DNA of 64,000 nucleotides, taken from Ischnura elegans. Taxonomy: Eukaryota > Arthropoda > Insecta > Odonata > Coenagrionidae. Under the pieces are notes generated by a model. It did no database searches, had not been told where the DNA came from, and saw only the letters and a list, made by a program, of their open reading frames with translations. The translations under genes were made by a program, and so were the position numbers. This document shows positions 385-55,924 of the stretch, one piece after another. The stretch lies in NCBI RefSeq assembly GCF_921293095.1, contig NC_060259.1, forward strand, positions 43,753,812-43,817,811, given 5' to 3'. Each line of letters begins with the position of its first letter. The first letter of the stretch is position 1.

Positions 385-1782
385 TTAATCCCATAAAAAT
401 TCAAGTTCCGGGACTGAGTAAACATTTCTCGTGGTACTCATTTTTAAAGGCTCGTCAATGTGGTATAATACAGTTTCCCATTCGTAGTCCAATTTATCCT
501 CTTTTTCTGGCCATTTCCAGAGTCTCCCAGATTTTTTCATAGCTGTAATAGTAGCAGCTGTTTCACAAACATCAGTTATAACCCCCGGAAATAACTCTTC
601 TTCATAAGAAAAAACTACATACTCCCCTACTTTCCTCTCTACTGGTTTTTTTATTGTTTTTCTCATGTATGTTTTCCTCATCGCTCTCATCTTTAAAATC
701 ACTGTCTGATGGCACCTCTTCTATGCCAGAGTTAGAGCTGTCTTTGTAATGAAGCACCCGCTTTGCAGTCCTTTTCTTATGCTGCCGAACTTTATCTTGT
801 TTCGCTCTTTCTTTTTCATCTTTTTTCCTTTGTCTCTCGGCAGCACGTTCCAGTTTTCTTTTTTCTAATTCTTCCTTTTTTGCCAACTTCTTTCTAAAAT
901 AATCTTGACACAGCTGTCCTGAGACAATGGCAGGCATTTTCTCCTTCATTGATCGTTTTTGTTTTGGTTCATTCTTGTCTTTCTGGAAAAAAAAGTGTCT
1001 TTTGAATGGGCTGGGGATTTCTGCAGATACTTTAGAAGTTCCAGCTTGACAAAGATCAGTATGATTAATACTATCTCTAGCAGGCTTATCGATACAAGTA
1101 AGGTTGTTCGTTCCAGATGGCATATTGTAATCATCAGTGGTATGATAAGTGGACTCATCGATAGCACTAGGAGTGAGTGTTGCAGATGACAGGTCCCCAT
1201 CCACAATGCTTAGGTTGTCTGGCTCATTAGTAGCACCAGATGCATTTAACAAATTACTTTCCAGTTCTAATTTTGTCTTCTGCCACAGTTCAAAGAGTGA
1301 AATATCTTTTTCCTCCAACTCTTTATTTGTATCCCTGTTACAAAATATTTTGAGCTTGCTTTCTGGAATACTCTCATTGAGAAATCGAAGTCCTTCTTTT
1401 AAAAATTGTCCACGTTCTTTGGCTTTTGTGACTTGATTATCACCTTCAATGTTTAATGGGAGAGTGATAGCTTCTGGGTTCCATGGAAACAATCCACATT
1501 TTCTAAAACCATTTTCCAGGATAGTCACTTGTAGCACATTGTCTATAACTTCTTTCAAAAGTTTTGGAAATTCTTTCTTCTTTAAGACTGGAGCCTCCAA
1601 ATTGGATAACCTCCATTCATGTACTTTCTTCTTCCAGTGCTCTTTAAGAGTCCTGAAAACCGAAACATCCATCGGTTGCAAGAGATGCGTCGCATTTGGG
1701 TACAGTGCAATGAGAATGATGCCATAGCTGCTTCCATTACCTCTTGAGTATAATTTCTAAAATTTCCCTTTGTTGGAGGCAT
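385..1782 (-). pseudogene. pogo/Tigger-type (DDE_1) transposase, internally deleted and frameshifted
   Basis: The relic starts at ATG 1782, just after an acceptor-like TTTTCAG. It opens with a pogo-type N-terminus (NYTQEVMEAAM), as in the helix-turn-helix that binds transposon ends. At about 1715-1725 it jumps, in another frame, to the end of the DDE domain: GIILIALYPNATHLLQPMDV, where the Asp in LQPMDV matches the family's last catalytic acid. The central region with the first two catalytic Asp residues is missing. A long Lys/Glu-rich tail runs to about 650. There a frame change, possibly in the T7 run at 646-652, leads into a final domain (VGEYVVFSYEEELFPGVITD) ending with the stop at 385. 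It cannot encode an active transposase. The family call is from recognised motifs. Confidence 0.75.
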
Positions 1783-30984: not shown

Positions 30985-31975
30985 TGAAGAATCGTCCACA
31001 GTTTATGCAAAAACCCAGTAGCCGTGATAAAATCAGGGCCCAGCTGTGAAGAAGCAAGAATTAGGAAAGGAGTGCGACAAGGCTGTACATTGTCACCCGT
31101 AATTTTCAACGTTTACATTGATAAAGTCATTAATGAAATCAAAGAAAATGCATTGGGAGTGAATATCCATGGAGAAAAAATTAGCATGCTAGAATTTGCC
31201 GATGACATAGCCGTTATAGCAGAAACAGAGAAGGATTTGAAAAATATTCTGGTTAATATGGGTAGGGTAATGGGTAGAGATCAACTGAAAATAAGCACGA
31301 AGAAAACCAAGATCTTAGTATGCAGCAGAAGAGAAGAAGTCAAGACTAACATTAAAATAGGGAAGCAAAAACTGATAGAGGTGGATGAATTCTGTTATTT
31401 GGGAAGCAAGATAACTAGTGACGGGAGAAGCAAGAAAGAAATTATCAGCAGAATAGCCCAGGCGAAGAGAGCATTCCACCAAAAGAGAGATCTGCTTACA
31501 GCGGGAAACTTAAATATGGAAGTAAAGAAACAATTTATAAGAACCTATATCTGGAGTATGCTTCTATACGGAAGTGAGGCATGGACGATGACCGCAGTGG
31601 AGAAAGCAAGGATAGAGGCCTTCGAAATGTGGTGCTACAGAAGAATGATGAAAATCAAATGGATCGACCGAGTCAGTAACGAGGAAGTCCTAAGAAGAGT
31701 AGGAGAGAAGAGAAGCCTCATGAAAACCTTAATAAGAAGACGGAACAACCTTATAGGCCACATCTTGAGACATGATGGCCTGATGAAGACAATCGTCGAA
31801 GGACAAGTGGAAGGCAAGAATGGAAAAGGAAGACTCCGAACAAAATATATGGAACAAGTAAAGAGAGATGTGAAAGAGAAGAAATACGTAGGTGTGAAAA
31901 GATTAGCTGATAGGAGAATAGAGTGGAGAGCTGCGTCAAACCAATCCTAGGATTGTTGACCAATGATGATGTTAT
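30985..31975 (+). mobile_element. 5'-truncated RTE/Jockey-like LINE
   Basis: Best preserved copy of a family with four members in the window (7914-8910, here, 47057-47765, 55228-55924). Coding similarity begins upstream of 31024 (SLCKNPVAVIKSGPS). The 3' end is AATCCTAGGATTGTTGACCA followed by TGATGATG. No convincing TSD was found for this copy. Confidence 0.85.
31024..31950 (+). pseudogene. LINE reverse transcriptase C-terminal half (308 codons open)
   Basis: The frame holds the RT motifs GVRQGCTLSPVIFNVYIDKV and FADDIAV, the latter with the catalytic DD pair. The RT thumb follows (FCYLGSKITSDGRSKKEI), then the usual C-terminal region IWSMLLYGSEAWTM...FEMWCYRRMMKI...GHILRHDGLM. The N-terminal AP endonuclease and RT fingers are missing, so the copy is 5'-truncated as expected from incomplete target-primed reverse transcription. 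The frame is uninterrupted over 308 codons, suggesting moderate age. Confidence 0.88.
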
Positions 31976-37814: not shown

Positions 37815-38145
37815 ATTATATTCGGAGTGTCTGAAGGCTTCGCCTGGGGTTTGAACTCGGAACCCTTCTGTCTGTCGCCTAAAGGCCGTTTTACACGGGG
37901 CACGGAATTGCGCAGGTTAGAGCTGCATTAATTTCTAAAATGGCGTGGAATTGCGCGAATGCATGAACGAAATGAGAGCAGGGGCTATTTTGCCGTCTCA
38001 CATCCACGCATTCCCGCATGTGTTCTAGCAATTCACCGCTTTACACGACGCAATTTTGATTACGCCTTCGCACGTACGTCAGATTGCGCAATTCCGTGTA
38101 CCGTGTAAAACGGCCTTAACGCTCTGCCCTCTTGGACCTCAGCTT
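37815..38145 (-). repeat. tRNA-derived SINE split by a Harbinger MITE
   Basis: On the minus strand an A-box-like stretch (AAGAGGGCAGAGCG, 38120-38133) and a B-box-like stretch (CCGAGTTCAAACCCC, 37846-37860) become adjacent once the MITE at 37883-38116 is removed. They are then about 20 bp apart, near normal tRNA spacing. A SINE body follows on the left. It could also be a decayed tRNA pseudogene. Confidence 0.6.
37883..38116. mobile_element. PIF/Harbinger-type MITE, 234 bp, TAA target duplication
   Basis: AGGCCGTTTTACACGGGGCA at the left and CCGTGTAAAACGGCCT at the right, flanked by TAA (37880-37882, 38117-38119). It is the same family and length as 16292-16525. Confidence 0.9.
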
Positions 38146-38165
38146 TTTCCTGATACATATGTACA

Positions 38166-41100
38166 TTAGGGCGGATCGCAAAAATCGATTTTTTTCAAAT
38201 CAATCTGGCCCAATGAAAAACAGTTGTGGGACCGATCAAAAATAAGGCCTGAAAAATTTGAGACCTGTACGTGAACCCCTGACCCTCGCTCAAATGCAAT
38301 TTAGGGGGGGAGGGTCAAAATTCGAAAAGTACAATATTTTATGGTCATTCCCTATAGATTTCGTCGAGTTACTGTTCTTCTAGGACAAAAATTTCGTGCA
38401 TTTTGACGTATCTGCCACCGTTTAGCCACAAAATGCCTAATTTGAGTCCGCGTCCGCGAAGAAAATATTCCAACGCCCACGCAGCGTCGCGGATACCAGA
38501 GCCGCAGGCCGATCCCTTCCCCTCCACGCTCGCTTCTCCCCCTCCCACGCCTCTAACACAGCAAAATTCATCCCGCGCATGCTGCTAGGAGGTCGTTTAT
38601 CTTTGATAATATAAATCAGAATATGGTAGAAGGTAAAAAACGATGCGTAGTGAGACGACTTGTCCCTCATTTGGCGCCTCGTCGGCGTTAAACAAATAGA
38701 TGTTACCAACTTTTAGAGAAGTGATGAAATAATTTAAACCTGCGTACGCAGGAAAGGAGACTACGGTCTATGAAGACGCCTCTCGAGTGGCTATGAAGGT
38801 GTGCGAACTATGGTGACGCGCTTCTCTTCCATTATGAATATGACTAAATAGATTTAGCGGTACCACAGGAAGTACTAAAACTTACGGAAAATCTAATACT
38901 AATAATAGGCCAAAAGTAGGGTTTTATTGAAGTATAAGACTCAAAAAATTTTAAAGGAACATTTTAAATTATGCGATATTTTTGCGTGTAAGTGCATGGA
39001 GGAGCATAAGGTTCCCCCAATGAGAAGTATTTTGAGAGACAATCTGACGAAAAGAAAGATGATGGCTGCTGGATTGAACCCTAAAGAAACTCAACAACTG
39101 AGGAAAAAAGGGAATCGTAGGACAGCGTTGAGTCATCATCGTCAATTCTTGTACGGGAAAATAGTATCAAAAATTTTCTTCATCAATTCATCCGAAGAAA
39201 ATTAAACTGGCGAGAAATTAGAAATTAATTTGTATCTCTACTTTCCTCATGAAATAAACATTAAGGACTATAACCTCAAATTGGAACTTCTTCGGGGAAA
39301 ATGCGTCTTCCAACTGTGATAGAGGTATATGCAAGAACCAAGCAACAGCAATGATCTTTCCCGCAACTTTAGCTGACGCAAAAGTCATAACTTCGTAAGA
39401 TATATCAGAGCTACTGTACCAGAATTACTTACGTAGACAGAAAAAGATGCAAATTACTGTGAATGAGAAAAGAGAGGTGTCATTAAAGGGCCTTTTTTTA
39501 TTGGAATGAAAGACTATTCTCTTGTGTGATGAAAAAAGGGAAGAGGACTTATCAATACAAGTTTAGAGGGGAATGTGTGGTGTTAGTTGAAGAAACAGGG
39601 TCCCACTTTTGGAGGTTTGCCTCCCCCGTCGGAGGATTAGCAAAAGTTATAAAATATGCTATTATCGATTCCTTTCTGAGTGAAAATCAGATACACAGAA
39701 TTAAATAGGATTTGATTATGATGGTACCAAGCGAATACCGCCCAAAAAGGAGGCATCATCCCTTTGCTATAAGCATAATTCCAACATCCCTTGCAGTGTG
39801 GGTAGACTCTTCTCGGGATTCCCACCGGGTTAATTTTTCCATAATGGCCAACATTTCAAGCTCCGACAGGGGGCTCATCCTAAGGGATAAATTTTGTTGA
39901 ACCCCGAAAAGAGTTTACCCACATCATTCGCCGGGAAAGCATCAAATCGTATTTCATCCCTTACAGTGGTCTATTTGCTAATTGCACTATGTTGACTTGG
40001 ATTGGCGACATAAACGTTGGGAGGGAAATCTAGGGACCCAATTTGCGTTTCTGCAAGGATGCGTTTGGCGACCAATCCGAGATTTTTTTAATTGCTGGAT
40101 TTTAATAACGACTTAAAGGCTGATGATATATTGGAGAGAGACTCCGGTTCCTTCGGCTATATCTGAGCTTAGCACTGTGGAATTTAAAAATCTATTGATG
40201 AAAGTTCAAATTTAAATTTCAATATTCCTTTTATTATACATACGGACGAGAGATTCGCGAAAGAATTTACCAAAACTTTGTTGACAGCAGCAAAAGACGA
40301 GGAATGACACTAACATAAGAAATACAGACTGGAAAGCAGGTAACTGAGTAATTCCTTCGTGATTGTTCCTCAATGGACGATGCTGATACATCAAATATTA
40401 GTAAGACTAACGAAGAAAGACGCACTTGGTGTGAATTTTGTTGCATCTGGGGCGTTCGAGAGGGGAGCGGGGAGGGTACGCCGGCGGCCTTCACCCTTAT
40501 TCATCCATTTAGTCACAGCTGTCGGACAGTACCGGAATAGAAGTGCATAACCTAAGTTCCCAAACCTTCATAGCCACTCGAGAGGCGTCTTCAAGACCGT
40601 AGTCTCCTTTCCTGCGTGCGCAGGTCTAAAATTATTTCATCACTTCTCTAAAAGTTGGTAACATCTATTTGTTTAACGCCGACGAGGCGCCAAATGAGGG
40701 ACAAGTCGTCTCACTACGCATCGTTTTTTACCTTCTACCATATTCTGATTTATATTATCAAAGATAAACGACCTCCTAGCAGCATGCGCGGGATGAATTT
40801 TGCTGTGTTAGAGGCGTGGGAGGGGGAGAAGCGAGCGTGGAGGGGAAGGGATCGGCCTGCGGCTCTGGTATCCGCGACGCTGCGTGGGCGTTGGAATATT
40901 TTCTTCGCGGACGCGGACTCAAATTAGGCATTTTGTGGCTAAACGGTGGCAGATACGTCAAAATGCACGAAATTTTTGTCCTAGAAGGACAGTAACTCGA
41001 CAAAATCTATAGGGAATGACCATAAAATATTGTACTTTTCGAATTTTGACCCTCCCCCCCTAAATTGCATTTGAGCGAGGGTCAGGGGTTCAAGTACAGG

Positions 41101-41198
41101 TCTCAAATTTTTCAGGCCTTATTTTTGATCGGTCCCACAACTTTTTTTCATTGGGCCAGATGGATTTGAAAAAAATCGATTTTTGCGATCCGCCCTAA
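38166..41198 (+). mobile_element. 3.03-kb DNA transposon with ~634-bp terminal inverted repeats
   Basis: Left arm 38166 to about 38800 and right arm about 40566 to 41198 are near-identical inverses. A 90-codon frame in each arm (38437-38709 minus, 40655-40927 plus) translates identically. The termini are TTAGGGCGGATCGCAAAAAT and its inverse, flanked on both sides by TGTACA. TGTACA is itself palindromic, so it could be a TSD or part of the TIR. The interior carries a decayed gene (38909-40210). Arm identity suggests a recent insertion or gene conversion. Confidence 0.85.
38909..40210 (+). pseudogene. Decayed ORF of an uncharacterised transposon-associated protein family
   Basis: Fragments in several frames follow one order. 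KILKEHFKLCDIFACKC then VPPMRSILRDNLTKRKMMAA (38954-39090) form a Cys-containing head. NSNDLSRNF-like and ATLADAKVIT-like pieces lie at about 39344-39400, and GECVVLVEETGSHFWRFASP then GGLAKVIKYAII at about 39571-39670. A GFDYDGTK-like piece is near 39711-39734 and ERLRFLRLYLS near 40137-40168. I recall arthropod proteins of unknown function with the same order (a CKC head, a VEE.GS...G.A block, a DGT block and an RLY block). That link is from memory and tentative. Stops and frameshifts make this copy inactive. No DDE triad can be assigned. Confidence 0.5.
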
Positions 41199-41204
41199 TG
41201 TACA

Positions 41205-42390
41205 TCCTATTTATATAATGATCCATTTTTGACGTATGAGATTGTTCCAGCATTTTTAATGGTCAATTATTTCATGGGATGGGCTGTATGAATACTATGG
41301 TGACACTCTTAGTAACTAACAGCTGTTGTCGATTGATTCATGGTTACTTCTGTCAATGTTTCAGGTCGAGTTTCATCTGCTACTCTCATGAATAATAATA
41401 TGCTGGCACAATTTTAACATGTACATATTTTATTTTGAGTTAATGGTTCGTTTTCGTTATGACTAAAATGAAGAGTAGTGGACTTAACAAGTGGAGGAAC
41501 GCTGGAAAATGAGTGCAATACAGCTTTATCCTTATCTGTGGCATGAATTCTTAATTTATTGGATCAAAATATATGGATGGTATTCGCTATCAGTGTTGTG
41601 TCTATTACATGTTATTATTATTTTAAAAGGTGTTTCTATTGGGCTTTTGGATGCTATCTGCTGAAACTTGGGAATAAAAGTACGTTTATCCATTTCAGGT
41701 CGTGAATATCTTCAGCAGCTGTACTTATTGTGAGGAGGAACCCAGCCACGATGATACACATTCAGTGGACTGAATGGTTGGTTACTTCTTGTCACTTCAG
41801 CGACCTATAACCTCTATGTTGTAGTATTTCAAATTCAGCCAATTGGCATTAGTCTCTACTTTGTGACCATAAAAAAGAAGCCATTGAATTTTCTAATTTT
41901 TTTGGTTCCTTTATGCTTAAACTAAAATATGAAAGCTATCAATGTTAATGAACTTTAGAAAGTCAACATATCAACTTTTGTGACAGGTGTATTGGAATGA
42001 CTTTGAGTGTGGTATATCAGAAATGAGTAAATTTTTCATTTCTCTGCATGTCAAACATTCCTACTTTCAGTGTTTAGTTCGAGGTGTTAAGTGTTTGTGT
42101 CGGTACCTGAAATGTGTAGGGTAAAATTTGATATCCTTTTTATTTGAGGGTATAATTCTAGTCAAATTATTTGTGCCGAGTAGTCTGTTAGGAAGCTGGT
42201 ATTTATTAGGTATCTTGAGAATTTTTTACAGCATTGATATGCATTTTCTGTGCTGGCAGCTCTCAACCCCATTTGTAACTAAATACATTTTTACTGTCTT
42301 TATTGTGTCTTTAATATAGTATTAATTCACCCTCCTAATCTAAGTTATTGTACTGATTTGGTAATTCTGACTAAATGAAATGTTGCTATG
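41205..42390. other. No recognisable feature
   Basis: AT-rich DNA between the long-TIR element and a SINE. Only short motif-free frames. Confidence 0.4.
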
Positions 42391-46770: not shown

Positions 46771-47056
46771 TTAAAAATGTAGCATTTGAAAAATATAGCG
46801 CAGAAAGGTGTTCAGTAATTATTTAATCGTTACGATTTGTTAACTTAAAGTTCGGACTCTTATTAAATGCCTCTTATTTAAATAAGGATATCGATGCGCT
46901 AGTCGAATGGATGGATTTAATATGATAGACCTAAGCGGCAGGAGATTGACAGGTTGAACTACAAATATTTCGGGGGAGTGACGTAGCCACAGGGGTGGCT
47001 TCCGGGTTATAAACCCCCAATGAGCCTTTATTACCTTATTTTATATATATTATATG

Positions 47057-47765
47057 TGAAGAGGATAATGGCCAGATATCAGCTGAAAATCGACAAAAAG
47101 AGGACTAAGATATTAGAATGCAGCAAAAGAGAGGAGGCTAATTGTAAGACAAACATTAACTTAGGAAAGCATAAGCTTGAAGAGGTGAACGAGTTCTCTT
47201 ACCTGGGAAGCCGAATTACCAACGATGGACGAAGCAAGAAAGAAATAGGCAGTGGAATAGCGCAGGCGAAGAGGGCTTTCTACAAAAAGAAGAATCTTCT
47301 TACAGCAGAGAATACAAACTTAGAAGTAAGGATACAATTCATCAGATGCTACATATGGAGCATATTTCTCGATGGAAGCGAGACTTGGACATTGACAGCA
47401 GCATAGAAGTGAAGAGTGGAAGCATTTGAAATGTGATGCTACCGAAGAATGATGAATATAAAATGGATTGACCGTGTAAGTAATGAGGAAGTGCTAAGAA
47501 GAGTGGGAGAAAAGAGAAGTCTCCTAAAAGCCGTAGGCAGAAGACGGAACAACTTAGTTGGCCACATTCTGAGACATGATGGGCTGATGAAAGCAATCGT
47601 AGGACAGGTGGAAGGGAAGAAGGACAAGGAACTGCCCCGAATGAGTTACATAGGACAGGTTATACAGGATGTTACAGATAAGAAATACGCCGCTATGAAA
47701 AGGATAGGAGAGAGGAAAAGAGAGCTGCGTCAAACCAATGTTAGGATTATGGACTAATGATGATG
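47057..47765 (+). pseudogene. RTE/Jockey-like LINE, diverged copy
   Basis: Translation from ARYQLKIDKKRTKILECSKR through FSYLGSRITNDGRSKKEIGS to IFLDGSETWTLTAA follows the RT thumb region of the 31024 copy at an intermediate level of identity. A stop at 47404-47406 and a frame change separate it from the C-terminal part at 47449-47757 (MMNIKWIDRVSNEEVLRRVG). The 3' end is TTAGGATTATGGACTAATGA followed by TGATGATAC. It is clearly older than, or a sister lineage of, the 31-kb and 55-kb copies. Confidence 0.82.
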
Positions 47766-55227: not shown

Positions 55228-55924
55228 TGCTGAAAATAAGCACGAAGAAAACCAAGATCTTAGTATGCAGCAGAAGAGAAGAAGTCAAGACCAACATTAA
55301 AATAGGGAGGCAAAAACTGATGGAGGTGGATGAATTCTGTTAATTGGGAAGCAAGATAACTAGTGACGGGGGAGAAGCAAGAAAGAAATTATCAGCAGAA
55401 TAGCCCAGGCGAAGAGAGCATTCCACCAAAATAGAGACCTGCTTACAGCGGGAAACTTAAATATGGAAGTAAAGAAACAATTTATAAGAACCTACATCTG
55501 GAGTATTCTCCTATACGGAAGTGAGGTATGGACAATGACCGCAGCGGAGAAAGCAAGGATAGAGGCCTTTGAAATGTGGTGCTACAGAAGAATGATGAAA
55601 ATCAAATGGATCGACCGAGTTAGTAACGAGGAAGTCCTAAGAAGGGTAGGAGAGAAGAGAAGCCTCATGAAAACCTTAATAAGAAGACGGAACAACCTTA
55701 TAGGCCACATCTTGAGACATGATGGCCTGATGAAGACAATCGTCGAATGGCAAGTGGAAGGTAAGAATGGAAAAGGAAGACCTCGGACAAAATATATGGA
55801 ACAAGTAAAGAGAGATGTGAAAGAGAAGAAATACGTAGGAGTAAAAAGATTAGCTGATAGGAGAACTGAGTGGAGAGCTGCGTCAAACCAATCCTAGGAT
55901 TGTTGACCAGTGATGATGATGATG
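55228..55924 (+). mobile_element. 5'-truncated RTE/Jockey-like LINE with perfect 12-bp TSD
   Basis: ACTGCAAGAGGT flanks it at 55216-55227 and 55925-55936. The insert starts inside the RT region (GCTGAAAATAAGCACGAAGA, equal to 31285 on) and ends TTGACCAGTGATGATGATGA. It is nearly identical to the 31-kb copy. A TAA at 55340 and an extra G near 55370 break its early frame. Confidence 0.92.
55463..55897 (+). pseudogene. LINE ORF C-terminal remnant (144 codons open)
   Basis: MEVKKQFIRTYIWSILLYGS to RTEWRAASNQS repeats the C-terminal part of the 31024 frame with few substitutions. The start is only the first internal Met; upstream codons of the same ORF are present but frameshifted. The FADD catalytic site is not included, so no activity is possible. 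Confidence 0.85.

Follow-up and report, generated by a model that had tools for sequence, protein, structure and literature searches.

A non-autonomous DNA transposon family with long, homogenised arms in Ischnura elegans, and a candidate transposase among its relatives

A 64,000-nucleotide stretch of the Ischnura elegans genome (assembly GCF_921293095.1, contig NC_060259.1, positions 43,753,812 to 43,817,811; hereafter the window) contains two long inverted arms enclosing what appears to be a ruined gene. An initial annotation, made from the sequence alone, proposed that the gene fragments keep the order of an uncharacterised arthropod protein family, that this protein might serve an undescribed group of DNA transposons and that the arms look younger than the gene, through arm homogenisation or mobilisation in trans. 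The locus therefore poses three questions: whether it is a transposon, whether the protein is the transposase of such elements and why the arms are so alike around so decayed a gene. In the reading we favour, to which we give a probability of roughly 0.87, the window copy is one of hundreds in a non-autonomous cut-and-paste family, spread from a dead master by transposase supplied in trans and with arms that interconvert.

Ends, arms and gene remnants of the window element

Comparison with other copies fixed the element, a non-autonomous DNA transposon, at 38167–41197 on the plus strand (3031 bp; TAGGGCGG...CCGCCCTA), with TAGGG at 38167 and CCCTA at 41197. It is flanked by an exact, palindromic 8-bp target site duplication (TSD), ATGTACAT, at 38159–38166 and 41198–41205. 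An inverted-repeat search with alignment revealed complementarity between 38159–38830 and 40534–41205 (577 nt at 99%, 37 nt at 95% and 60 nt at 87%), the outermost 8 bp of which are the TSD and not terminal inverted repeat (TIR); a TIR beginning with ATGTACAT was rejected on comparison with other copies. The near-identical arms, previously put at about 634 bp, are thus real (~98–99% alike), as is the element, although the bounds first given for it (38166–41198) were one base too wide at each end because the palindromic TSD prolongs the inverted repeat. The window contains two occurrences of a 29-nt end pattern (≤3 mismatches), with 0.00 expected in shuffles.

Alignment to an intact relative elsewhere in the genome (L069, described below) identified the left outer TIR at 38167–38546 (plus strand), which is common to the 378-bp TIR of that relative (87%), and the right outer TIR at 40818–41197 (minus strand). 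The left inner arm (38547–38830, plus strand) consists of subterminal sequence and the start of the predicted transposase gene, and is an arm by virtue of an inverted duplication: inside the right outer TIR, arm matching and alignment placed an inverted copy of the gene start (40503–40729, minus strand; 72% to L069), by which the right arm is lengthened. Directly upstream of the element, at 37877–38122, lies a MITE-like palindrome with 38-nt arms that are 89% complementary and 170 nt apart.

The decayed plus-strand gene proposed to lie between the arms was borne out by tblastn with the protein of L069 (E 1.4e-25); DNA identity to L069 is ~87% in the outer TIRs and ~69% in the gene remnants. 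By alignment, the 5′ and middle parts of the gene occupy 38635–39798 (plus strand), where protein pieces fall between residues 4 and 418, with many stops and frameshifts. Two of the blocks originally singled out match the intact protein, namely the FACKC head (frame 38909–39205; residues 104–209, 46%, E 1e-20) and the VEE.GSHFW...GGLAK block (frame 39487–39708; residues 328–381, 63%, E 9e-20), and a frame at 39258–39398 matches residues 253–278 (E 1e-4). The DGT-like block fared less clearly: DGTK stands at the collinear place, followed in other frames by NTAQKGGIIPLL and then PLQWSIC*LH, but the short frame alone gave no significant match at that place of the intact protein. The LRLYLS block was rejected as an out-of-frame coincidence, since the corresponding LRLYVS segment (residues 526–531) lies within a deletion; the in-frame homology at the supposed place (40123–40188) is MIYWRETPVPSAISELSTVEFK against LINWAETTVPPAISDRSEEEIQ. 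The protein family is presumably an arthropod one.

A foreign insert of ~161 bp (39797–39957) splits the DGT/CxxH region. The remaining remnants, all on the plus strand, comprise the CxxH region (39958–39996, by alignment; PLQWSIC*LHYVDLDWRH at 39958–40011), the C-terminal part (40077–40303; residues 656–728 matched at 40123–40340) and, also by alignment, a remnant of the relative's stretch from the last gene codons to the right TIR (40348–40464). By eye, the insert has imperfect inverted ends (TGGGTAGACTCTTCTCGGG and CCCGAAAAGAGTTTACCCA) and a repeated CATCCCTT(G/A)CAGTG flank.

Elsewhere in the window, a 384-residue open frame at 605–1756 (minus strand), presumably pogo/Tigger-like, matches DDE_1 (E 4.4e-5), and a reverse transcriptase frame at 30988–31950 (plus strand) matches RVT_1 (E 6.6e-19). 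Fragments at 46987–47406 and 55367–55897 resemble the latter by eye, and so does a tail inside two longer variants of the transposon (L020 and L029).

Copies, target sites, lesions and arm homogenisation

In the 1.72-Gb genome searched, the 34-nt terminus has 936 exact occurrences (453 forward and 483 reverse; 0 for a reversed-pattern control). The first 100 of these places listed formed 41 pairs and 18 singles: 31 pairs span 2.98–3.46 kb, two 2.8–2.9 kb, three 0.8–0.9 kb and four are longer, while the remaining pair, at 4253 bp, is the autonomous-type relative. Querying the genome with one arm yielded 42 matches, many as inverted pairs ~3.0 kb apart (40 scored of 2615 first-look candidates). 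Copy counts from similarity searches are lower bounds, and identities are biased upward, the copies having been picked as best matches. No match to the terminus pattern, the protein bait (see below) or the family alignment was found in viral contigs.

As the initial annotation had suggested, genomic copies were collected and their ends compared. Of 61 stretches (60 loci, L009–L068, plus the window copy), both ends were present in 49; four of these were duplicates, leaving 45 distinct copies with the same ends. Of these, 42 have a perfect 8-bp TSD and 44 one with no more than a single mismatch; when flanks of different elements were mis-paired, 118 of 1980 pairings reached the latter level, a rate raised because the copies have a common target preference. 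Letter by letter, the 42 perfect TSDs most often read (A/C/G)TGTACA(G/T/C), and 32 of them fit nTnnnnAn, the target of Ac-type hAT elements. One locus (L015) is a 1395-bp copy with a perfect 8-bp TSD and most of its interior missing, a shorter deletion class.

Six junctions of the window element recur among these 45 copies: that of the shortened 5′ part in all 45, the two edges of the ~161-bp insert in 43 each, and two deletions and the start of the inverted duplication in 41 each. None of the six was found in either of the two autonomous-type copies. The ancestor of the 3-kb copies already carried a broken gene. Because deletions, insert and lengthened right arm are common to the copies, they descend from a master that was already dead and was moved in trans. 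Mobilisation in trans, one of the two causes offered for the young-looking arms, accordingly holds, and a simple difference in age between arms and gene is rejected.

The other cause, homogenisation, holds as well. Arm clustering was examined in 41 elements of 2.9–3.7 kb among the 45, where arm identity is 99.15% within elements versus 96.59% between them, and the nearest relative of an arm is the other arm of its own element in 73 of 82 cases. Had there been no exchange, left arms would be expected to group with one another, the duplication being older than the copies; instead, the two arms of one element are sister tips in 37 of the 41 elements and not in the other four. This holds for 19 of 22 elements picked by arm similarity and for all 19 picked by interior similarity. 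Arms are therefore homogenised within each element. Interiors of 18 copies are 95.6% alike versus 98.3–98.5% for outer arms, a comparison that is biased because those copies were chosen by arm similarity.

A protein family paired with long TIRs and its affiliation

The protein was sought with a composed bait sequence, not a database record. This bait matched 93 places in the genome; the best match (51% identical over its main part) lies in an uninterrupted frame at C1:153780744–153782603 (minus strand). Nine bait matches with a 383-residue frame have near-equal stop counts (for example C12:94476403, C5:48684790 and C5:131600627) and may form a second non-autonomous family of the same protein.

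The intact relative, L069, is a 4253-bp element with 378-bp TIRs (99.2% identity), the same ends as the window family (TAGGGCGGATCG), the TSD CTGTACAG and an intact frame of 742 codons. Its sister L070 (97% protein identity; TSD TTACACAG) has two in-frame TAG codons. More divergent proteins were found in L071, extended by L077 (38% identical in a partial match; TIR ~630 bp, TSD GTATCCAT), L074 (35% over residues 384–740; TIR ~525 bp, TSD GTGGGCAA) and L076 (32% over the longest piece; TIR ~375 bp, TSD ACGCACAG). Both ends start with TAGGG in the window family, L069, L070 and L074, with TAAGG and TAGGG in L071 and with TAGGG and TAGGC in L076. No match to the intact protein or the family alignment was found in prokaryote genome contigs.

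In total, both TIRs and an 8-bp TSD accompany the protein at five of the eight protein-bearing loci fetched outside the 3-kb family (L069, L070, L071 with L077, L074 and L076), and no recognisable ends were found in the stretch fetched at the other three (L072, L073 and L075). The worry that other copies of the protein family would lack such TIRs is thus not borne out in general. Beyond a TAGGG or TAAGG start, in place of which one end of L076 has TAGGC, the TIR sequences of the divergent families differ, yet the pairing with the protein is kept, which means that the association has outlasted deep divergence. Long TIRs, TAGGG-like ends and 8-bp TSDs still accompany proteins of 32–38% identity. 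The protein is therefore almost certainly the transposase, and these pairings strongly suggest that the unnamed family is the enzyme that moves the elements, as the initial annotation had supposed. A passenger protein in elements moved by another enzyme would accord with the scarcity of intact genes, a single full-length frame free of stops having been seen in 71 matches (60 scored of 7621 first-look candidates), but the constant pairing across such divergence and the conserved D..D..E-like chain of the protein render this highly improbable.

It had been conceivable that the interior fragments would match a known transposase superfamily or no protein at all. They clearly match the intact protein, which itself has no significant match in Pfam, NCBIfam or PDB; single-protein searches gave weak matches only. 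Four family members as queries likewise gave no significant Pfam match, and hAT models such as PF05699 (Dimer_Tnp_hAT) were not listed for any of them at E ≤ 10, under HMMER filters that drop most matches above ~0.1; ordinary hAT elements of the same genome do match PF05699. A four-member profile gave no significant match in PDB, only an L23 ribosomal protein (E 0.017) that we took as chance. The motifs of the intact protein are D319 (YFDGR), D393 (CDGT..N), C422xxH425, R518W519 and P691..T...E698R699. The chain running from D393 through CxxH and RW to the ER block arose in 0 of 200000 shuffles, for a pattern written after the protein had been seen. These motifs are all kept in L069, L070, L071 (with S for T694) and L072; one or more are lost in the decayed L073–L076.

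With no profile match, membership of hAT rests on motifs and ends. TIRs of hAT elements start with (T/C)A(A/G)NG, which fits every end compared except the second end of L076, and the 8-bp TSD recurs not only in the 3-kb copies but also in L069, L070, L071, L074 and L076. The CxxH, RW and ER motifs, a 4.25-kb single-gene element and non-autonomous deletion derivatives likewise recall the Hermes, Ac, Buster and Tip groups. Differences lie in the nTGTACAn target, the lack of any Pfam match and the length of the TIRs, 375–690 bp here against the 10–25 bp given for hAT in PMC3942097. TSD length, TAGGG start and ER block favour hAT, with long TIRs and missing profile match counting against it, and the protein probably belongs there as a distant branch. 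A superfamily of its own within the C/DxxH group (hAT, MuDR, P, Kolobok and Dada), combining a Pfam-less transposase, long TAGGG TIRs, 8-bp nTGTACAn-like targets and continually homogenised arms, would explain the failure of even the four-member profile as well as the TIR length; we regard it as possible but unlikely, as the ordered motif chain and the ends, mostly TARNG, are hAT-like and TIR length is judged an unreliable guide to classification (PMC3573991). The idea of an undescribed transposon group has partial support: Pfam, NCBIfam and PDB contain no significant match, and the open-licence PMC text that we searched yielded no description of the family, but motifs and ends point to hAT.

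Two other superfamilies with long TIRs are both very unlikely homes for the element. Mutator-like elements (MULEs) often have long TIRs, and their TSD is usually 9 bp (range 8–11). The exact 8-bp TSD in 42 of 45 copies falls inside that wider range but off the usual length, the ends begin with TAGGG and no MULE or Transposase_mut Pfam match was obtained; CxxH and the W between the second D and E are common to hAT and MULEs such as Muta1 (PMC5225508), and so agree with either. For the P superfamily, in which TSDs of 7–8 bp occur, the C-terminal ER block is unlike that of P transposases, and there was no THAP or P-transposase Pfam match. Galileo of Drosophila, a P-superfamily element, nevertheless has long TIRs that are 98–100% identical within a copy and are extended by inverted recruitment of internal sequence, along with many deletion derivatives (PMC3573991), but it has a 7-bp TSD (PMC3573991) and a THAP-domain P-type transposase (PMC3573991, PMC3688188). 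Kolobok and piggyBac, which duplicate TTAA, were rejected on the 8-bp nTGTACAn TSD.

A proposed history and its implications

In the history we propose, the autonomous-looking 4253-bp relative would encode the transposase, probably hAT-like, in its single uninterrupted gene. The enzyme would bind the outermost ~380 bp of each arm and cut at TAGGG, and insertion into 8-bp sites resembling nTGTACAn would give rise to the 8-bp duplications. Long ago, one copy may have lost about one third of the gene and gained the ~161-bp insert. Its right end would then have been repaired from the left, copying the gene start into the right arm and producing arms of ~660–690 bp; Marzo et al. propose that Galileo TIRs are extended when one TIR is repaired from the other (PMC3573991). 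The resulting dead 3-kb master would have given hundreds of copies through transposase acting in trans, and gap repair or conversion between arms would keep those of each copy alike. In high copy number, absence of coding capacity and movement in trans, the family is like MITEs and other non-autonomous deletion derivatives; it differs in its 3-kb length, its recognisable gene ruin and the origin of the examined copies from one rearranged master.

These results give a function, that of predicted transposase, to a protein family unnamed in the libraries searched, and annotations may therefore wrongly list such genes as belonging to the host. They would also add a branch with long TIRs and 8-bp TSDs near hAT, and the 41 elements serve as natural replicates of homogenisation between the two arms of a transposon, a process proposed for Galileo.
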